Source of the DNA: Thermoplasmata archaeon
GTDB taxonomy: Archaea; Thermoplasmatota; Thermoplasmata; Lutacidiplasmatales; UBA184
Assembly: GCA_021817605.1 (NCBI GenBank)
Contig: JAKAUN010000004.1
Span: 1-64,000, forward strand
Direction of reading: 5' to 3'
DNA: 64,000 bases
The notes beneath the pieces are model-generated. The model ran no database searches. It was not told where the DNA came from and saw only the letters and a program-made list of their open reading frames with translations. How positions within the stretch are numbered: position 1 is the first letter of the stretch; every line of letters begins with the position of its first letter. This document shows positions 1,100 to 47,513 of the stretch, one piece after another. The translations under genes were made by a program, and so were the position numbers.

Positions 1100-4000
1100 C
1101 TACGGCGTTCGTTTCTTCGGGGGAAAGTGAAGCCTGCAGTAGACCGGCCGCCCCGGCGCTGGGATGAAAGGCACCTTGATGCTCCCTCCGCATGTGGAAC
1201 AGGTGGCGTCATGGAGCTCGCGAGGAGCCTCTGACACCGCCGTGTTCGGCTCACGCTTCAGGCGGGGCCTGTGTCTCGGGCAGTAGATCGGTCGGACTCC
1301 ATCTGGTCGGAACGGGAGCCTGACAGTCGTGCCGCACACCGAACAGGGAAAAGCGACACGCTCCCCCTCTGCAAGCGGCTCAGCGTTGCTCTCTCTCACC
1401 CTCCGAATCTCGAGGGGGTCCCTCACGACCGAGGGGGTTGCGGACTCCCGTCGCAGAGCCTCGCCACTCGCTGTCGCATCTAGGCGCGCCCGACACTCAA
1501 GGCAGACCGACCCGGGAAGAGCTCGACCGCTCTCCCGCGGTCGATAGTGAGGGTGATGGAAGGGGCGATGGCACTCTCGGCAGACCGCGTTTGGTTCACC
1601 CACTAGCGCCCCGCTCCACCGTTGCTTCCTCAGCTCCTGTTTCTCCGACTCTTTGATCCGACGGAACTTCCCAGCGGGAAGGCGGGCGATTCGCCCGCTC
1701 TCGACGAGGAAGTCAAGGAACCGGCTCTCGTCCATGCCCCAGCGCTGAGGATCAAACCAACCGTGAGCCCGCCGGGTCGCAGTCAGTACTTCGGACTCCT
1801 CTACCGGATCGAATGGCTTGGATTCCAACCCTTCGGTGGAGTGACAGAAGGCCTGAACGCCAGCTCCAAGGCTCTCCGGGTCCCGTACGACGGAGGCCCT
1901 GGGGGCAAGGGGGGGCTGACTCCCGAGCGGGTGGAGGGAGTAGGTCCGGTCGGCTTCCCACACCAGTTGGATGAAGCCGTTCTCATGGGCCTGCTTCGCC
2001 AGCTCCTCGAAGTACATGGGCGACCTGCCCTTCCCGAAGGCTCGCATTACCGCATCCCAGCGGCCTGCGAGCGGGGGGTTGGTAGAGATCGGGTGACCAG
2101 CCCGATCGGTCTTGATGGCGCCATCTACCGTGAACTCACGAAACGTGCTCTCCGCAGCGAACTCCACCAGAGCTACACGGTGAGGATCCCTCAAGGCCGA
2201 GTCGGACGCAAGTCCCTCAACTTGCCTGCGGATGAGTTCGTAAATCTCCCAGGGCTTGTCTCTCGCCTTCAAGTCATGGGGGAACCAAAGCTCCGGACGA
2301 GCGAGAAGGGCGGCCGCAAGGGCCCTTCGGGCCAAGAGGGGATGCTCAATCAAAAGGGCGAGTTCTCTGCTCGACTCGGACCCCCTCTCCCTACCATGGG
2401 CAAGGAAGTTGTCGCTTCCGATGAGGAGCCGGCTCTCGTCGACCACTACGAATTTTGAGTGATTGCCCATGGGTGATTCGCTAGATCGCAGATTGTCCGG
2501 ACGCGCCTCAAGGAGGCGATGGAGAACCTCCCGAGCCGCGCCAAGCTCCTCCAAGGTGTCCTTGTCATCTGTCTTCCACGCGGGGTTCTCAAGCCCCCAG
2601 AGAATCCTCACTCGGAGGTCGTCGAGCCGCAGCTCGCCGGCGAGAGAGGCATCAAGTCCCGATTCGTTGAGACGGTCGGTTGCGATTGCGATGGCATGTC
2701 CTGCTGACGACACCTGCTCGACGAGAACGTCGCGGATGTCTTCTCCCTTGACGAGCTCCAGCTTCGGGGACCTGAAGTGGGTCCACAAGACATCCCGCAA
2801 GGCCGTGAGTTGCTCTCGGACCTTCCGCCAATCCCGCGCCTCGTGGACTCCCTCATCAAGAATCGACTGGAAGAGCGAGGATAGGGCACGGAGGCGTTCG
2901 GAAACCGGCTCGCCCACGCTCCCTTGGGTTTCTGTGAGCGAGCCAAGGGTGGACTGAAGGATCGGCTTGGCCTGTTCGTCCGCCTCTTCGATGAGGAGAC
3001 AGAGTAGATCGGCCGACAGCGCTTTCGACCGGCCAAGAATCGTCCCTTCAAGGTAAGGAGCGTGCCCGAATGAGGAGCCGAGATTCCAGCTCCCTAGCAT
3101 GAAGAGGGAGTGGTCATTGACGACGATCTTCTCGTGAGATCGCATCGTGGTCGGTTTCACCAGGACGCGCACCTGACTCCGAACCTTTGCGGACAGGAGA
3201 CGCTGGTAGGTCAGCGCGGTCTCCTCTCTCGCTCTTGCGTCCTCGTCATTGGCATGACCGTAGAGTAGGAGCGCCTCCGACCCATCGGGCATGTCGGAGA
3301 GGAGACTTCCGACCCATGCGACGTGTTTCGGGTTGAGGAACGATGTGAGGACAACCAGCTGCTTCCCTGTCGACAAGCAGAGTCTGCGAAAAGCCGTCGC
3401 TTGGTCCATGGCTGGCCCAATCCACACCTCAAGTTCCGACGCATCGGACGCGGCCTCGGTCGAATCTACCCAACTGGACGCCCACTCGCTAACGAGGGCC
3501 AGGCCTCGAGTGGCCAACAACTGCCTGGTCTCCTTCGACACCGTCTTGAAAGTATTCCAACGAGCTCGCTCCCAAAAGTCGTCGACCGACTCCAAGAGCT
3601 GCAAAGCAGGTGTTCGGTAGAAGCCAAGCCTGAGGTCCTTGGTGTTGATCTTCAGCTCAAGGAGTTGTTGAACGGATCCCCTCAAGACCCGCATCATGCT
3701 CGGAGGGGGATCTGCTCCAACCAGCCACCGCTCGGCCTTCCCCTTCTCGTGGTGGCGGATTGGAATGGCCACTTCCATCGTCCGCGCCAGCGCGAGGGTC
3801 TCGACCCGATCGGCCCTGTCCTCCAAGGACTGCCTCCAGCTGCGGTACTCCTCGAAGTCCATCCGCTCCTTCGGTGGGCTCATGTTCCGCACGAGACGTC
3901 GCAAATCGGTCGTTCTGAGAAGAGCTGGGGCGGTCGTCGCATCCTTTGCGGGGGCAACCGGGACGTCAGATGGGTGCGCCTCCCGGCGCTCGTGCTGAGC

Positions 4001-4345
4001 AACCCAGTTGAATGGGTGGCAGAGCCCTTGCACAAGATCGATTGCCCATGCAGTCTCGAAGCTCTGGAACCCATTCTCACCGTCAAGGGCGGCGCAAGCC
4101 CCAGACTTGCCGGGGGCGGAGAAGAGGGGGATGCCGCGCGTAAGCGCGCGTAGCGCAAGCTCGGCGGTCATTGCTAACGGGAAGGGAGAGACAACAGGCG
4201 GGGTAGCGCCTCGCTTCGCTGCGGCCTCAAGCACTTCAACGGCCGACGCGACCAAGTCAACGTCCGGCGAACCTCCTTTGAGGCGGAGAGTACCAGTCAC
4301 GATTGCCACCGGCACGATTACGCGTGCGCCAGTCTGATCGGTCAA
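1100..4345 (-). CDS. Double-HKD PLD-type nuclease with C-terminal zinc ribbons (Mokosh MkoB-like)
   Basis: Predicted phosphodiesterase or nuclease of the phospholipase D superfamily, 1081 residues. Two HxKxxxxD motifs are visible: H404-E-K406 with D411, followed by GSWN, and H629-S-K631 with D636, followed by GSDN. Two such halves form one PLD active site. The N-terminal 300 residues are not recognised. The C-terminus holds three Cys/His modules at about 922-951 (CxxC...CxxC), 1001-1025 and 1049-1073 (both CxxC, then a PF.P...R segment, then YCxxH), likely for nucleic acid or protein binding. The start codon is TTG and overlaps the helicase stop as TTGA (4342-4345), so the two are translationally coupled. 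Known type I Mokosh pairs a COG1112 helicase with a PLD nuclease. The zinc tail is unusual in that comparison, and the protein is long for a PLD effector. Confidence 0.8.
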   Translation of the reverse strand: MTDQTGARVIVPVAIVTGTLRLKGGSPDVDLVASAVEVLEAAAKRGATPPVVSPFPLAMTAELALRALTRGIPLFSAPGKSGACAALDGENGFQSFETAWAIDLVQGLCHPFNWVAQHERREAHPSDVPVAPAKDATTAPALLRTTDLRRLVRNMSPPKERMDFEEYRSWRQSLEDRADRVETLALARTMEVAIPIRHHEKGKAERWLVGADPPPSMMRVLRGSVQQLLELKINTKDLRLGFYRTPALQLLESVDDFWERARWNTFKTVSKETRQLLATRGLALVSEWASSWVDSTEAASDASELEVWIGPAMDQATAFRRLCLSTGKQLVVLTSFLNPKHVAWVGSLLSDMPDGSEALLLYGHANDEDARAREETALTYQRLLSAKVRSQVRVLVKPTTMRSHEKIVVNDHSLFMLGSWNLGSSFGHAPYLEGTILGRSKALSADLLCLLIEEADEQAKPILQSTLGSLTETQGSVGEPVSERLRALSSLFQSILDEGVHEARDWRKVREQLTALRDVLWTHFRSPKLELVKGEDIRDVLVEQVSSAGHAIAIATDRLNESGLDASLAGELRLDDLRVRILWGLENPAWKTDDKDTLEELGAAREVLHRLLEARPDNLRSSESPMGNHSKFVVVDESRLLIGSDNFLAHGRERGSESSRELALLIEHPLLARRALAAALLARPELWFPHDLKARDKPWEIYELIRRQVEGLASDSALRDPHRVALVEFAAESTFREFTVDGAIKTDRAGHPISTNPPLAGRWDAVMRAFGKGRSPMYFEELAKQAHENGFIQLVWEADRTYSLHPLGSQPPLAPRASVVRDPESLGAGVQAFCHSTEGLESKPFDPVEESEVLTATRRAHGWFDPQRWGMDESRFLDFLVESGRIARLPAGKFRRIKESEKQELRKQRWSGALVGEPNAVCRECHRPFHHPHYRPRESGRALPGSVCLECRARLDATASGEALRRESATPSVVRDPLEIRRVRESNAEPLAEGERVAFPCSVCGTTVRLPFRPDGVRPIYCPRHRPRLKREPNTAVSEAPRELHDATCSTCGGSIKVPFIPAPGRPVYCRLHFPPKKRTP

Positions 4346-6861
4346 ATCCGAACTCCGAGCTCATCTACCGGGACTATCGTCCCGTGCCGCTCGACGTAGC
4401 GAAGAACCGCGACTAGGTGTTCCATCTCGGGGTCAGCCGCATGGCGCCGCACGTGCTCCGCGCAGCCCACTATCACCAACTGACGTCGTGCCCGAGAAAG
4501 CATGACGTTGAGCCTCTCGGGACTGACGAGGAAGCCCCACGCATTCCGAGCGGTTCCGAACGGGTTGTTTCGGACCAAGCTAAGGATGACGAGGTCCGCC
4601 TCGTTCCCCTGGAAACTGTCCACGGTCCTGACGTTTGCTCGCGGATCGATGGAACCAAGGAACTCCGTCTTGGCGGGCAAGCGGGACGGGATGCCGGACC
4701 GGCCCGCGAGTCGATCGACCTGAGCATTGTAAGGAGAGAGAATCGCGAGGCTTCCTCCGTGTCTGTCAACTGCCTTGAGTTCGCGGATGATTGCGGCCAC
4801 CGTCGATAGCTCAATCTCGCTGAACCGCTCTCCAGTTCTGTCCTCCCTTGCTTGAGGTTCCTTCCTGCTGTGCGGAACATCAATCCAAACCAGGGGTGAA
4901 TCGTGAAGGGCGGGATGGCGGAAGAGCGGGGAGCACTCTTCTCGTGGACGCTTATGGTTGAACCTGTGAGGATAGAAGATTGAGCTCACGAGGTCGGAGA
5001 GGACGGGGACCATGCGGTACTGATCCGAGAGCATGAAGCTGGGGCAGCCAGCTTCTTGGAGATGCTTGAAAGGCAGGAGGAGAGAGCCAACGCTCGACCA
5101 GGAGAACTCGGGCGTGCCCTGCACCCTCTCAAACAGGACCGGATTGTGGTCAAGAAGGCGGACCCGGCCCTCCTCCTCTCCCCAAAGCCGTTCGATATCG
5201 TTCAGCGCAGCCGAGACCTCATCGGCTTGGAAGGGCGGAAGCTGTTTCTGGTCGCCGATGAGCAGCGCGTTCCGGCCCTGCGCCAAGACCGAAAGCAGTT
5301 CGGAGGGGTAGCACTTCCCAGCCTCCTCGACGACCACCAGGTCGAATGGCTCGGAGGATGCAGAGACGAGTTCCTCGTGAACTGCAGCAGCTGTGGTGGT
5401 CGAGAAGAGAAGCTGGCTGCTTCGCTGGTGAACCTTGGAGAGAATCGGGGGAGCCTGTCCCTCCCATCTCTTATGAGCCTCCGCCCAACAGGCTGGGAAC
5501 TCCTTGACGGCGGCCCGGCGAACCAGTTCTCTCGCCCATGTCGATGAGAAGGCACTGTCGGAGGCCGCAGAGGATGGGTCGGCAGAGTCGGTTGCTCTCT
5601 CGACGGTAGAATGCTGAGGGGCACTGTCGCCCAGTCGGGTGAGCACGCGATTGCGGAGTAGATGGAGCGCGTTATGCTCCTTCGCACAGACAAGGATCCT
5701 TGCGTGTGGGTCGCGTCGAAGCCATTCCTCGACGACGTCGCAAGCAAGGTGCGTCTTCCCCGTTCCGGGGGGCCCCTGGACGCAGTAGATCCCCTCGTTC
5801 TCGACTATCGAGTCCGCAAGGATCTCGCGAGAGGGTTTCGGGTGGGCATTCGCCTTCCCGCCAAACCACCTGATGATGTGCCGCTTTCGACCTGCCGTGC
5901 GGAGGATGGCCCGCTTTCGCGCCACCAGGGCCCGAGTCCCCTCTGAACGCGGCCGTACCCATCCTCGCTGTGGGAAGGGTTTCCGCTCGAGAGGGCGGAT
6001 GATCAATGCATCCTCATCTTCGTCCGGCGAAGTGAGGATGGCAACTCGGCTGCCCTTGTACTCGAATGGATCTGGGGAGTCGTTCGCAACGAGCTCCAGC
6101 CTCTCTCCATCGCTTTCCCGAAGAAGGCTTTCGAAGAGAGCGGCGGCGGTAGCTCGGTTGAGCCTGCCGAAGACCGGGTGAGGCTGGACGCGATCTAGCA
6201 GGATTGTCAGTTCCTTCCCAGGTTTCTCCTCATCCCTAGTTGCCTCCTTAACAGAAAACGGATAGACCATTTCGTAGGCCGCTACCTCCTCCCCTTGGAG
6301 AGTGGCCATCAACTCGAGTCCCGTGTGCGTCAAAGACTCTGGTGGACCCGGAGCTGGGTCGACGGTTCCCAGGCACTCCCAGTCTCGTTTCTCGCGTGCC
6401 TTGTCGCCAGAGCGAAGGACGAGGTCGAGTGTGGGTGGAGCGACCAGCTCGCCTCCGGTACCTGTGAAAGCGAATCCTTCGTCCAGGCCTCCATGGGAAA
6501 GGCCCCGAGCATGCAGTGCGGAGGCCGTAGTCGCGAGCTTCGGGGACGACGCGACCTCACTCGAGGTCAGAGGGCGGAGGGTGGTCCCGCTCGGCGAAGA
6601 CAGCCAGCACCAAGTCCGACCCGACTCGCTCCACCAGCGTCGGGGTTCGAGAACGCGCAGCCCGTCAGTCCATGCGCCCCACCATCGGCGCAGGATGATC
6701 TTCCAGACACGCTCAGCGATGTCGGACAGATATGGGTTCTCTGGTAAGTGGGAGACTAGCAGGGCGCCATTGGTTGAATCGGTTCTGTCCAGACCGGGCA
6801 CCGCTCCCGCAAAGCTGGAGCGGATTGGGGACGCGAGCGCGTAACGATCCAGTTGGGCCAT
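4342..6861 (-). CDS. SF1 UPF1-like helicase with N-terminal degenerate kinase fold (Mokosh MkoA-like)
   Basis: An 839-residue helicase of the UPF1/COG1112 group. Motifs counted from ATG 6861: Walker A GPPGTGKT 363-370, Walker B VEEA 511-514, GDQKQLPP 536-543, QYRM 614-617, TVDSFQGNEAD 746-756 and NVMLSRARR 785-793. Residues 4-150 read like a protein kinase: LDRYALASPI, LDRTDSTNGALLVSHLP and LHARGLSHGGLDEG fit the N-lobe start, the strand that normally carries the VAxK lysine, and the HRD loop. The lysine is replaced (Ser37) and HRD Asp is Gly125, so it should be catalytically dead. The frame is open to a GTG at 7062, but the kinase-like homology begins at 6861 and a CTTAAG box sits 36 nt upstream, so ATG 6861 is chosen. 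First gene of the pair. Confidence 0.85.
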   Translation of the reverse strand: MAQLDRYALASPIRSSFAGAVPGLDRTDSTNGALLVSHLPENPYLSDIAERVWKIILRRWWGAWTDGLRVLEPRRWWSESGRTWCWLSSPSGTTLRPLTSSEVASSPKLATTASALHARGLSHGGLDEGFAFTGTGGELVAPPTLDLVLRSGDKAREKRDWECLGTVDPAPGPPESLTHTGLELMATLQGEEVAAYEMVYPFSVKEATRDEEKPGKELTILLDRVQPHPVFGRLNRATAAALFESLLRESDGERLELVANDSPDPFEYKGSRVAILTSPDEDEDALIIRPLERKPFPQRGWVRPRSEGTRALVARKRAILRTAGRKRHIIRWFGGKANAHPKPSREILADSIVENEGIYCVQGPPGTGKTHLACDVVEEWLRRDPHARILVCAKEHNALHLLRNRVLTRLGDSAPQHSTVERATDSADPSSAASDSAFSSTWARELVRRAAVKEFPACWAEAHKRWEGQAPPILSKVHQRSSQLLFSTTTAAAVHEELVSASSEPFDLVVVEEAGKCYPSELLSVLAQGRNALLIGDQKQLPPFQADEVSAALNDIERLWGEEEGRVRLLDHNPVLFERVQGTPEFSWSSVGSLLLPFKHLQEAGCPSFMLSDQYRMVPVLSDLVSSIFYPHRFNHKRPREECSPLFRHPALHDSPLVWIDVPHSRKEPQAREDRTGERFSEIELSTVAAIIRELKAVDRHGGSLAILSPYNAQVDRLAGRSGIPSRLPAKTEFLGSIDPRANVRTVDSFQGNEADLVILSLVRNNPFGTARNAWGFLVSPERLNVMLSRARRQLVIVGCAEHVRRHAADPEMEHLVAVLRYVERHGTIVPVDELGVRI

Positions 6862-44227: not shown

Positions 44228-45475
44228 GTGGAGCGGCTCGACGCGCTCGTGGTCGGGGCGGGCCCCGCCGGCACGACGTTCGCCTACCGCCTCGCCGAGG
44301 CCGGTCGACGCGTTCTCGTCGTCGAGGAACACCCGCGTGTCGGCCGTCCCGTCCAGTGCGCCGGCCTCGTCTCCCAGCGCGTCCTCGACCTCGCGGGCTC
44401 CTCGTCCATGGTCGTCCGGCCGGTCCGGGGAGCGACCGTCGTCGGCCCGGGCCACGGCGCCTTCGAGTTCAAGGCCGAGGAGCCCCGCGCCTTCGTCATC
44501 GACCGCGCCGCCCTGGATGTCCATCTCGCCGAGCGGGCGGCACGCGCCGGCGCCGAGCTCCGCACGGGCACCCGCTTTGACGGGATCGTGCGACGCGAGC
44601 CGGACGCCGTCCGGGTGCGCCTCACGGGAGCGGACGGGGCGACCGACGAGGTCGCGGCGAGCGTCGTGGTGGGCGCCGACGGGGTCGCGAGCTCCGTCGC
44701 CCGCGCCTTCCGGCTGCGGCGGCCGGTCGAGATCCTCCCGGCCTTCGAGGTGGAGTACCCTCAGGCCCCGGGCGACCCGGACACGGTCGAGGTCTACCTC
44801 GGCCGGGCGTTCGCTCCCGGGCTGTTCGGCTGGTGGATCCCCGACGGACACGGCGGCGCCCGTGTCGGCGTGGCGGCCGACGCGGACGGCACGCCAGCGC
44901 GTGTGTACTTCGAGCGGCTCCTCGACCAGCTGGAGCGGCGAACCGGCCACCGGCTCGCGAATCCGACCGCGATCCTCGCCTCGGGGATCCCGATCGGCAC
45001 CCTGCCACGCTACGTCGGCGAGCGCGTGCTCCTCGTCGGCGACGCGGCGGCGCAGGTGAAGCCGCTCTCCGGCGGCGGGATCTTCACGGGGATGCGGGCC
45101 GCCGAGCTCGCGGCGACGGTCGTCCTGCGGGCGCTCGGCGGCGGAGAGCCCTCCGAGCGTGCCCTCGCCGACTATCCCCGTGCCTTCGAGGCCGAGCTCG
45201 GCGAGGAGTTCCGCCGGGCGCTCTACCTACGGCGGGTCTTCTGCCGGCTCTCCGACCGCGAGCTTGATGCCCTCGTGGATGCCCTCCGCGAGGGGAACCT
45301 CAAGGGGACCGTGGTCGCCTTCGGCGACATCGATTTCCCCACGCACGTCGCCCGCCAGCTGTTGAGGGCCTCTCCCGGCCTCGTCCGCCTGCTTCCGAAG
45401 GCTCTCGGGGCGTGGATGAGCCCGGGGACGAGCTACCCGGCTCCCGAGCTCGAGCCGTCGGTCCTTCGGAAGTAG
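44228..45475 (+). CDS. Geranylgeranyl reductase family FAD-dependent protein
   Basis: A 415-residue flavoprotein. ALVVGAGPAGTTFAYRLAEAG binds FAD at the N-terminus; RPVQCAGLVS (conserved Cys), VVGADGVASSVAR and LVGDAAAQVKPLSGGGIFTGM are signature segments of archaeal geranylgeranyl reductases, which saturate the isoprenoid chains of membrane lipids. The start is GTG, placed by a TATA-like site. The last 43 nt overlap the convergent surface-protein gene. Confidence 0.92.
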   Translation: MERLDALVVGAGPAGTTFAYRLAEAGRRVLVVEEHPRVGRPVQCAGLVSQRVLDLAGSSSMVVRPVRGATVVGPGHGAFEFKAEEPRAFVIDRAALDVHLAERAARAGAELRTGTRFDGIVRREPDAVRVRLTGADGATDEVAASVVVGADGVASSVARAFRLRRPVEILPAFEVEYPQAPGDPDTVEVYLGRAFAPGLFGWWIPDGHGGARVGVAADADGTPARVYFERLLDQLERRTGHRLANPTAILASGIPIGTLPRYVGERVLLVGDAAAQVKPLSGGGIFTGMRAAELAATVVLRALGGGEPSERALADYPRAFEAELGEEFRRALYLRRVFCRLSDRELDALVDALREGNLKGTVVAFGDIDFPTHVARQLLRASPGLVRLLPKALGAWMSPGTSYPAPELEPSVLRK

Positions 45476-46167
45476 AGCCACGCCGCGAGGCCGACCAGCA
45501 CGAGCCCTCCGACGAGGAGAGCACCGAGCACGTAGGGCCAGGAGGAGACCTTCACCAAGACCGCGGTCTCGGGGAGGATCCCCGAGACGTTGAGCATCGT
45601 GAGGTTCACGGTCGCGCTCCCGTTCGGTCCGCGGGTGGCGTTCGCCCAGAGCGCGGCCCCGAACCAGCCTCGGGACTCGAAACGGTAGCTCTTCCCGCCC
45701 GCTTCGAAGGAGAGGGCCGTGCGGATCGCGAAGGTCCCCGACGGGGTCGATGACGAGCTCGCCACCGTGATCGTCCCGTGGTCGGAGCTGCCCGTGCGGA
45801 GGCTCGAAAGCGAGAAACTGACCGACGGGCCCGAGACGTTGGCGGTCGCCAAGGTCGGCGCATGCGCCACCGGGGTCGGGGAGACCGCATCGCCGGGAAA
45901 GCCGTTGAAGGCGTAGAGACCGAAGCTCAGCACGAGGCCGGTGAGCGTGAGGTTCGTCGGATCGGTGAGCTCGAAGGCAAGATGCGTGGTCGCCCCGGGG
46001 TCGATCGACGGGACGGAGAGGTTGGAAAGGAACTCACGACCGGGCTCGGGCAGGGTGGGGTAGCTGGCGGCCCGAGCCGAAGGAGCGAGCGCGGGAAGCG
46101 TGAGGAGCAAAAGCAACGCGACGGCAACGAGGGCCGGGAACGTCGGGGAGCGCCCCGGCCTAGGCAA
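45433..46167 (-). CDS. Exported, membrane-anchored protein of the BlaI/protease operon
   Basis: A 244-residue protein from TTG 46167. Residues 9-33 form a signal peptide (FPALVAVALLLLLTLPALAPSARA). An ectodomain of about 170 residues has DPTNLTLTGLVLSFGLYAF and many N-x-S/T sites, in the style of an Ig-like beta fold. A membrane helix (WPYVLGALLVGGLVLVGLAAWLYF) ends the chain with a short tail. The start overlaps the stop of the protease gene by 8 nt, so translation is coupled. It could be the extracytoplasmic sensor or the substrate of the protease. Confidence 0.75.
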   Translation of the reverse strand: MPRPGRSPTFPALVAVALLLLLTLPALAPSARAASYPTLPEPGREFLSNLSVPSIDPGATTHLAFELTDPTNLTLTGLVLSFGLYAFNGFPGDAVSPTPVAHAPTLATANVSGPSVSFSLSSLRTGSSDHGTITVASSSSTPSGTFAIRTALSFEAGGKSYRFESRGWFGAALWANATRGPNGSATVNLTMLNVSGILPETAVLVKVSSWPYVLGALLVGGLVLVGLAAWLYFRRTDGSSSGAG

Positions 46168-47077
46168 CGGCCTCCTCCTCGAACTGGCCGCTCTCGGCGA
46201 GGGCGACCAGGCGGCGGATCCGCTCGAAGGTCTGGCGCTGGCCACGGCGTCCCCCCGGCCCGAGCAGGCCGGCGAGGGGACCGGGATGCGACGGGGTCGC
46301 GAGGCGGCTCGCCTTGTAGATCGCCCGCGCGAGGGCCCGGGGCCGCCGCGTGAGCTCGACCGCGTCGGCGTCAGCACGGAACTCCTCGCGGCGGGTGAAG
46401 CCAACCGCGACCGCCGCCAGGATCGGGTCCCAGCGCATGAGATGGGCGAAGGTGCGAAGGAAGGTGAGGTAGCGGCCGTCCTTCTCGTGCACGTGGCCGA
46501 GCTCGTGGGCGACCACCGCCGTCCACTCCTCGGGGTCGAGGGCGCCCAGGAGGGCATCGGAGACCATGATGACCTCGTCGCGGGTCCAGGAGAACCCGAG
46601 GCGCGGGCGGAGCAGGGCGAAGGTGAAGGCGTCCGGCCGCTCCGAGGCGAACGTCAGGAGCCGAACCGGGCTCTCCGGCGCAGCAAGCCCTGCTGGCCAC
46701 GCGAGAGGTCGTGGGTCGAGCAGGCGGAGAAGCCCCCGACCGACCGCCTGGCAGAGGAGGAAGGCAGCGAAGAACACGAGGAAGGCGCCGACGGCCCCCA
46801 GGGCCCAGACCTCGAGGCTGGCCGAGGAGAACAGGCGGGCTGGAGAGTCGACCAGCTGGGAGATCGCCCCGAGACCCCCTCGCGCGAGGATCCAGACAAC
46901 GGTGGTCGTCGCCAGCAGCGCCCAGAGAGCGACGGCGACCACCGCCACCCGATAGAGCAGGACCGTGTACTGGGCGCCGGGCCGGCGGAGGGGCGAAGTA
47001 CCAGGAACCGGGCCGGGCGACATGGCGAGCGGACCCGACGAACCCGCCGCCCCCATCCCGGGGTCGCGACCGTTCAC
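46160..47077 (-). CDS. Membrane zinc metalloprotease (M48/M56-like)
   Basis: A 305-residue protein. Two membrane helices (about 40-66 and 90-113) are followed by a cytoplasmic protease domain with HELGH at 191-195 and the third zinc ligand in REEFRADADAVELTR. The layout and partner resemble BlaR1/MecR1-type M56 proteases, which cleave BlaI-family repressors after sensing a signal outside; M48 HtpX is the alternative. The BlaR1 sensor domain is missing from this chain. GTG 47077 overlaps the BlaI-like gene's stop (GTGA), and a membrane-anchored gene follows with overlap. Confidence 0.85.
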   Translation of the reverse strand: MNGRDPGMGAAGSSGPLAMSPGPVPGTSPLRRPGAQYTVLLYRVAVVAVALWALLATTTVVWILARGGLGAISQLVDSPARLFSSASLEVWALGAVGAFLVFFAAFLLCQAVGRGLLRLLDPRPLAWPAGLAAPESPVRLLTFASERPDAFTFALLRPRLGFSWTRDEVIMVSDALLGALDPEEWTAVVAHELGHVHEKDGRYLTFLRTFAHLMRWDPILAAVAVGFTRREEFRADADAVELTRRPRALARAIYKASRLATPSHPGPLAGLLGPGGRRGQRQTFERIRRLVALAESGQFEEEAVA

Positions 47078-47433
47078 TCGAGCCTGAGGCGGCGCCTCAG
47101 AGCACGCTCTTCGGAGGGGTCGAGCTTGGCGAGCTCCTCGTTCAGGTGGACCACACCGGTGGGGCCGAACATCGCCACGACGCCGCGGAGGAGGTTGCGC
47201 AGGTATTTCTGCTCCACCTCAGCGGGACGGTAGACGTACCGCTCGCCTCCCCGGCAGCTCTCGCGACGGCGACTGACGAACCCCTTAGCGTGCAGGCGGG
47301 AGAGGATCGTGGCCACCGTGGTGTAGGCGACCCGGATCCCGCGTCCGTCGAGCGAGCGACGCACGTCCCGCGCCGAGCCCTCCTTCAGCCCACGGAGGGA
47401 GAGCATGACCTCGGTCTCGAGCGAGCCTAGCAT
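47074..47433 (-). CDS. BlaI/MecI/CopY-family transcriptional repressor
   Basis: A 119-residue winged-helix protein. LGSLETEVMLSLRGLKEGSARDVRRSLDGRGIRVAYTTVATILSRLHAKGFVSRRRES and YVYRPAEVEQKYLRNLLRGV match the BlaI pattern (LxxLExEVM, AYTTVxxILxRLxxKG, YxYxP). In bacteria such repressors are cleaved by BlaR1-type proteases. Here it is coupled by overlap to a membrane HELGH protease. CTTAAG lies 36 nt upstream, and a 5-bp dyad (47497-47513) lies further up, between this gene and the divergent cysteine operon. Confidence 0.9.
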   Translation of the reverse strand: MLGSLETEVMLSLRGLKEGSARDVRRSLDGRGIRVAYTTVATILSRLHAKGFVSRRRESCRGGERYVYRPAEVEQKYLRNLLRGVVAMFGPTGVVHLNEELAKLDPSEERALRRRLRLE

Positions 47434-47465: not shown

Positions 47466-47471
47466 CTTAAG
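47466..47471 (-). promoter_or_regulatory. TATA-like CTTAAG element of the BlaI-like gene
   Basis: CTTAAG centred about 36 nt before ATG 47433, the same hexamer and spacing as in front of the helicase operon. Confidence 0.5.
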
Positions 47472-47496
47472 AAGTGCGCCGGATGAGAACGCACCT

Positions 47497-47513
47497 GTAA
47501 GTACGACCCTTAC
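47497..47513. promoter_or_regulatory. Possible operator dyad between BlaI-like gene and CBS gene
   Basis: GTAAG, 7 nt, CTTAC forms a perfect 5-bp inverted repeat in the 149-nt divergent spacer. BlaI-family repressors bind short dyads near their own promoters, so it could be an operator for both directions. The repeat is short enough to be chance. Confidence 0.3.

Follow-up and report, generated by a model that had tools for sequence, protein, structure and literature searches.

We analysed a 64,000-nucleotide stretch of DNA (hereafter the window) from a Thermoplasmata archaeon (assembly GCA_021817605.1, contig JAKAUN010000004.1, positions 1 to 64,000), whose 1.75-Mb genome is assembled in 16 contigs and belongs to the family UBA184/Lutacidiplasma (Thermoplasmata, soil archaea; hereafter f1). 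On its minus strand, between a geranylgeranyl-reductase-type gene and a divergent cysK-type gene, lie a regulator gene, a protease gene and a third gene, in that order. The first (47074..47433) encodes a winged-helix regulator of the BlaI/MecI/CopY family of 119 amino acids, the second (46160..47056) a membrane metalloprotease at the boundary of peptidase families M48 and M56, 298 amino acids long from a conserved ATG, and the third (45433..46167) a protein of 244 amino acids that begins with TTG and carries a signal peptide, a predicted immunoglobulin (Ig)/E-set-like ectodomain and a C-terminal transmembrane (TM) helix. An initial annotation had described these genes as a BlaI-like repressor, a HELGH protease and a single-pass exported protein, and proposed that the last was the detached sensor of a split BlaR1. 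All three open reading frames (ORFs) are present, and the descriptions of their products were borne out by a Penicillinase_R match above the Pfam cut-off, by the HELGH motif at 46493-46507 together with an M48 match above the cut-off, and by an N-terminal hydrophobic segment plus one C-terminal TM segment in the sequence and the AlphaFold2 (AF2) model of the third protein. We consider the chances somewhat better than even that the locus is an autoregulated, sensor-less BlaI/membrane-protease switch that came to stand before an older Ig-fold surface-protein gene and is now co-transcribed with it.

Conservation of the three-gene unit

The arrangement is not a chance one, since it recurs through the genus and in related genera; the flanking genes are likewise syntenic across the genus. 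The neighbours are named here as geranylgeranyl reductase, Kae1 and cysK, which we presume from the sequences rather than from a family search. In 60 loci fetched from other genomes of the genus, homologues of protease, regulator and third gene were found in 54, a script count made on whatever part of the contig was present, and among the gaps inspected most were contig ends. With the window included, 58 regulators, 55 proteases and 56 third proteins were excised from the genus loci.

We then compared the gene boundaries in 71 loci (the 60 of the genus, 10 from other f1 genera and the window), of which 66 had protease and third gene on one strand. In 53 of the 66, the last 8 nt of the protease ORF (46160..46167, minus strand, in the window) overlap the third gene, whose start codon is GTG or TTG; a second, overlapping set of loci gave the same start in 53 of 63. 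This overlap with weak start codons persists even though the third proteins are only 29-52% identical. Translation of the third gene is thus predicted to be tied to that of the protease, and in the window the TTG at 46167 is a better start than the one at 46557 that had been assigned mechanically. At the other boundary, the protease start that is conserved among loci is an ATG, in most cases located some 10-27 nt past the blaI stop (47056 in the window), with a GTG at 47077 as an alternative start in the window, and a 4-nt overlap of blaI and protease gene is possible in only three of the 66 loci, the window among them. The translational coupling first described for all three genes therefore holds for the protease and the third gene, and is no more than locally possible for the regulator and the protease. 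In one genome (G002, locus L076) an insertion at 2997-4831 of the locus separates the protease gene from the third gene; its genes presumably encode IS607-type serine recombinase-like and TnpB-like proteins, an assignment made outside any family search.

The regulator and the membrane protease

The regulator matches Penicillinase_R (PF03965) with 58.1 bits (E = 1.4e-15; cut-off 22.6), residues 2-116 aligning with model positions 1-113 of 115. The match spans both the winged helix and the dimer region and exceeds the Pfam gathering score for the BlaI/MecI/CopY family, and it is the only Penicillinase_R match above the cut-off in the genome. A regulator profile also retrieved PDB entry 2g9w (E = 7e-5) across the DNA-binding part, which we take to be Rv1846c, the BlaI of Mycobacterium tuberculosis. 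An apparently frameshifted blaI in genome G070 was considered as a decaying gene and rejected, the break being an assembly gap of two N.

The protease scored 47.5 bits against Pfam M48 (cut-off 20.3) and contains HExxH, so that it qualifies as an M48 peptidase, while its M56 score of 28.1-28.2 bits lies below the cut-off of 31. All 12 f1 proteases match M56 at E < 0.01. Going by these scores, an M56 label for the window protease would go too far, because the protein itself falls under the M56 cut-off, though four BlaI-paired relatives in other families exceed it (37.9-39.8 bits). In an alignment of 60 homologues, the zinc-binding motif HELGH (46493..46507, minus strand; H184, E185 and H188) is invariant except at its middle positions, as are D193, D210 and P211 and, in a second motif EExxAD at residues 224-229, E224, E225, A228 and D229. 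The AF2 model (mean predicted local distance difference test, pLDDT, 84.2) has a TM plus metalloprotease scaffold of the BlaR1/MecR1 type. Its residues 21-274 align with residues 25-294 of Staphylococcus aureus BlaR1 (8exs; Z 10.5, root-mean-square deviation (rmsd) 5.6, 202 residues aligned). The quality-control protease ZMPSTE24 (6bh8; Z 10.9, rmsd 5.2, 183 residues) ties with BlaR1, so the scaffold match cannot separate M56 from M48; BepA scores Z 9.3. The chain has no C-terminal extracellular sensor domain, since the modelled protein ends at residue 298 after a helix at 270-288, and the protease matched no sensor-domain family in the Pfam search. The model thus points to the TM and metalloprotease layout of BlaR1 with the sensor domain left out.

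The possibility that the protease groups only with HtpX housekeeping enzymes was addressed with a tree of 32 catalytic domains, from which the protease of one BlaI pair (L294) was left out. The 12 f1 proteases formed one clade (support 100/98), next to which stood two proteases that are paired with BlaI in other families. A separate clade (100/99) comprised 11 HtpX proteins, this genome's own included. Because its clade stands apart from the 11 HtpX proteins, the protease is, by phylogenetic placement, not a housekeeping HtpX. Against the HtpX models it scored at most 34.6 bits, compared with 291 for the genome's own HtpX. The NCBIfam cut-off of 369 was unusable for this assignment, as the control HtpX also falls below it.

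A conserved element upstream of blaI

An 18-bp putative operator or upstream element, GTACTTACAGGTGCGTTC in the window (47487..47504, minus strand), precedes the sequence TTAAG (47466..47470, minus strand), which would be the TATA-like box of the blaI operon; the two lie 34 bp apart, start to start. The genus consensus GTWCGWAC-NN-GTTCGTTC was found with at most three mismatches in 42 of 57 blaI upstream regions, 18 of them exact; the 57 include L040, whose contig starts inside blaI and so offers no genuine upstream region. The halves of the element match about equally well as inverted (5.5 of 8) and as direct (5.6 of 8) repeats. Across the 40 loci with an element at up to two mismatches and a cysK match, the distance to TTAAG was 34 in 38, whereas the distance to cysK varied from 70 to 1644 bp. 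The element therefore appears to belong to the blaI promoter, and a role as a cysK operator was rejected on the same grounds.

A search of 15 genomes with at most one mismatch returned 12 matches, seven of them at the blaI promoter, and none for the reversed control pattern. In the window's genome, the site itself (two mismatches from the consensus) is the only one within three mismatches of its own sequence. The element was not found in the 11 f1 loci that lack blaI, save for one palindrome with three mismatches, and it is gone in G071, a genome of the window's genus discussed below. Its fixed place before the TATA-like box and its near-uniqueness in each genome suggest that the blaI operon is autoregulated.

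The third protein and its oldest visible neighbour

The AF2 model of the third protein (pLDDT 90.4) consists of a helix at residues 9-27, a beta-sandwich at 47-205 and a helix at 210-234, which we interpret as a signal helix, an Ig/E-set sandwich and a C-terminal TM helix. No Pfam family was found for the window protein; among homologues, weak matches to NEW3/NPCBM_assoc appeared, with best E-values of 0.0042 (6 of 28 members) and 6.5e-6 (5 of 20 members), and these and other E-set Ig folds have the Ig-like sandwich in common with the third protein. The structures retrieved by fold comparison were generic E-set proteins, among them a dextranase and the C-terminal domains of transglutaminases, both at Z about 10. 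A subunit of the translocon-associated protein (TRAP) complex, 8b6l_F, matched at Z 9.1 (rmsd 5.1 over 141 residues, TM included), and many unrelated E-set proteins score equal to or above it. Eukaryotic TRAP subunits likewise combine a signal peptide, an Ig domain and a C-terminal TM helix. No TRAP family was matched by 28 members of the third family (E up to 0.1) or by 20 members (E up to 1), and we keep a TRAP-like identity only within the very improbable reading given below, as there is fold likeness and neither Pfam nor PDB sequence searches give support to kinship.

At its 3' end, the third gene runs tail to tail into the geranylgeranyl-reductase-type gene on the plus strand (end 45475), the two overlapping by 43 nt (45433..45475). 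This convergent overlap recurred in 87 of the 87 loci with a reductase match, comprising all 65 pair-bearing loci with a third-gene match (of 70 given), all 11 f1 loci without the regulator-protease pair, and 11 of 20 loci from other families, the remaining nine of which had no reductase match. Its length in f1 is mostly 43 or about 103-127 nt (22 nt in one locus) and in other families mostly 81 nt, and the frame of the overlap also differs between f1 and the other families. An old convergent overlap thus seems to join a surface-protein gene and a lipid gene. Because it spans pair-bearing, pair-less and other-family loci, the oldest visible neighbour of the third gene would be the lipid gene and not the switch. 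We had also considered a conserved cytoplasmic tail of the third protein and dropped it, because in pair-bearing and blaI-less f1 loci the tail is encoded opposite 43-124 nt of the reductase gene (apart from the one locus with 22 nt), so that its conservation cannot be ascribed to the third protein itself. In one genome (G132, locus L184, 4775-5494), a second lipid gene, encoding the CDP-archaeol synthase CarS (Pfam E = 2e-51), lies upstream of the third gene.

Co-occurrence and loss of the pair

The same 300 genomes of the class, 62 from f1 and 238 from outside it, were searched with profiles of the third protein, the protease and the regulator. Within f1, the regulator profile matched 49 of 62 genomes, and strong protease matches (E < 1e-80) fell in the same 49. 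Outside f1 the regulator profile matched 25 of 238 genomes, and at least 21 of 31 regulator places there have a protease-profile match beside them on the same contig. From this co-occurrence, BlaI and protease appear to be a matched pair. The third family was distributed differently, being present in 58 of 62 f1 genomes and in 108 of 238 outside. It occurs without the pair in 11 of the 62 f1 genomes (four of genus g36, two of g39, four of g40, and G071 of the window's own genus). The pair was seen without a third-gene match in G043 and G286, where the listed protease match covers the N-terminal part only, at a contig start in G043; all three genes are absent from two f1 genomes (G039 and G317). 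In other families, none of the 10 BlaI-protease loci that we read (L192-L196, L199-L202 and L294) contained a member of the third family. In a sample of 194 genomes of the phylum, the third family was found in 29 (E up to 0.001), several families of other classes included, although seven of the 29 matches are weak (E = 1e-6 or worse).

On a tree of the neighbouring reductase (88 rows), the presence of the pair has to change three times. Genera g36, g39 and g40 contribute 10 loci without the pair, which group with one another and with G124, where the pair is present; G071 is nested deep among pair-bearing genomes, beside G070. The third ORF of G071 is intact (profile match E = 6.9e-103), and the 263 bases that precede it still include an 88-bp blaI remnant, with a local score of 68 where 200 shuffles reached at most 30. 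A protease remnant was not found in those 263 bases (score 22, against 31 for shuffles). These patterns indicate that the pair was probably lost in one clade and again in G071, with the third gene retained each time, and that the third family predates and outlives the pair.

A proposed sensor-less switch and its alternatives

Family assignments, a conserved unit, the start/stop overlap, a near-unique element and the persistence of the third gene where the pair is absent can all be read from the sequences. On the interpretation that we prefer, BlaI dimers would bind the element and hold the operon down until some envelope or membrane state activates the protease. The active protease would then cleave or otherwise inactivate BlaI, and the operon would be expressed, yielding more protease and third protein until the cue fades. 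It would follow from such a cycle that the third protein is mainly an output and not a sensor. Several observations count against this interpretation. No element within three mismatches was found in 15 of the 57 upstream regions (L040 among them) or in nine of the 10 pair-bearing loci of other f1 genera, the tenth having one match with three mismatches, and the deeper-branching members of the genus have no such element or a heavily altered one. The third gene may also have an internal promoter of its own. Finally, some 16 bp separate the element from the TATA-like box downstream of it, an arrangement that also suits an activator, so that regulation could be positive.

The split BlaR1 of the initial annotation, in which the ectodomain of the third protein senses a ligand, turns on the protease through the membrane and leads to removal of BlaI, is in our view unlikely, although several of its elements stand. 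BlaI and protease form a conserved unit, the protease resembles BlaR1, is distinct from the genome's own HtpX and has no sensor domain of its own, and the third protein has a suitable topology, with an outside domain and one TM helix. Gene order and start/stop overlap are conserved wherever the pair occurs in f1, which makes a functional link of the third gene to the pair likely, and this lineage could have turned an old surface protein into a sensor. The part that did not hold is the detached sensor. The third gene and the pair were expected to co-occur, and beyond the immediate lineage they separate in both directions, as the pair-less genomes (11 of 62 in f1, 108 of 238 elsewhere) and the 10 loci of other families without a third-family gene show. 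Moreover, the intact third gene of G071 does not behave as a dedicated sensor, which would be expected to decay with its switch. That deletion may be recent, and the argument is strong only when taken with the other 10 f1 loci that lack the pair, which are older and still have intact third genes.

Somewhat less probable still is mere neighbourhood, that is, a pair inserted beside an unrelated housekeeping surface gene, with the overlap reflecting compact packing. The synteny of the flanking genes across the genus and the two losses of the pair without loss of the third gene are compatible with it. It sits poorly with an exact -8 overlap that keeps weak GTG/TTG starts in 53 of 66 loci at such low third-protein identity, and with the fact that no f1 locus was seen in which the pair is located elsewhere.

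There is only a slim chance that the BlaI-family protein is an activator that recruits the transcription machinery from a site upstream of the TATA-like box, with its removal by the protease as the off signal. Archaeal activators often bind just upstream of the TATA box, and the element indeed stands upstream of the box at a fixed helical phase and not over it. The spacing gives no proof of sign, however, and characterised BlaI/MecI/CopY proteins are repressors.

Improbable too, and a shade more so, is a role of the operon in envelope quality control, with the third protein as a substrate or client that the protease would trim or degrade and BlaI as a feedback regulator. The tight stoichiometric coupling of the two genes and the likeness of the protease model to the quality-control proteases ZMPSTE24 and BepA besides BlaR1 would suit such a role. 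Most genomes with the third family lack this protease, however, and the topology would place the catalytic domain in the cytoplasm and most of the third protein outside. Least credible of all, to the point of being very improbable, is a Thermoplasmatota-wide, membrane-anchored Ig-fold third protein, built like eukaryotic TRAP subunits and encoded in tail-to-tail overlap with the lipid gene, that one family has placed under a BlaI/protease switch reading membrane lipid or translocation state, with a TRAP-like translocation or envelope factor as its output, which if true would amount to a regulated-proteolysis circuit for the archaeal membrane.

Relation to known systems

The window system is most likely a sensor-less BlaI/BlaR-type switch comparable to the pair of M. 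tuberculosis, where BlaI (Rv1846c) and a BlaR1 homologue likewise combine a BlaI-family regulator with a BlaR1-type zinc metalloprotease that has no sensor domain. It differs in being archaeal, in a protease nearer to M48 than to M56, and in a third, co-translated surface protein. Also, the window's genome has a single dominant site instead of the multi-gene BlaI regulon that Sala (2009) reportedly described in M. tuberculosis. With the staphylococcal BlaR1/BlaI and MecR1/MecI systems, representatives of the switch that bacteria employ against penicillin, the locus has in common the regulator family and an HExxH protease in a TM scaffold, but its protease lacks the C-terminal penicillin-binding sensor domain, there is no beta-lactam context, and cleavage of BlaI is only putative. 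HtpX (M48B) shares the M48 fold and the zinc motif and belongs to the separate clade described above. According to PMC9834060, the M. tuberculosis BlaR1 homologue has no equivalent sensor domain, and how it perceives its signal is unclear.

Literature searches returned no paper describing the operon or the third family, which is not proof of absence from print, and the accessible part of PMC9287336 makes no mention of BlaI, M48, M56 or geranylgeranyl. New features are the archaeal host, a protease intermediate between M48 and M56, a co-translated surface protein with an Ig fold, and a deletion found in nature. The f1 lineage offers dozens of natural variants, including one genome that has apparently just shed the switch and still keeps the downstream gene; together with the small candidate regulon, these variants open to testing both the cue that such proteases respond to and the targets of the switch. 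The locus also points to a conserved Thermoplasmatota surface-protein family that overlaps a lipid-biosynthesis gene and for which we found no named function.

BlaI-family genes in other settings

In two other families, f29 (L202) and f22 (L294), the gene after the pair encodes a MacB/FtsX permease, and L202 additionally has an ATP-binding cassette (ABC) ATPase gene next in line. Such changed downstream genes are as expected of a portable switch with varying outputs. In family f25 (L287, L288 and L289), the regulators closest to the window BlaI stand without a protease, near a gene whose beginning resembles the AbrB/PhoU-type gene of L163 (MazE and PhoU in Pfam); the latter adjoins the third gene in the pair-less genus g36. 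In family f23 (L291 and L292), BlaI-like genes without a protease lie directly upstream of other genes, which presumably resemble subunits of 2-oxoacid:ferredoxin oxidoreductase.

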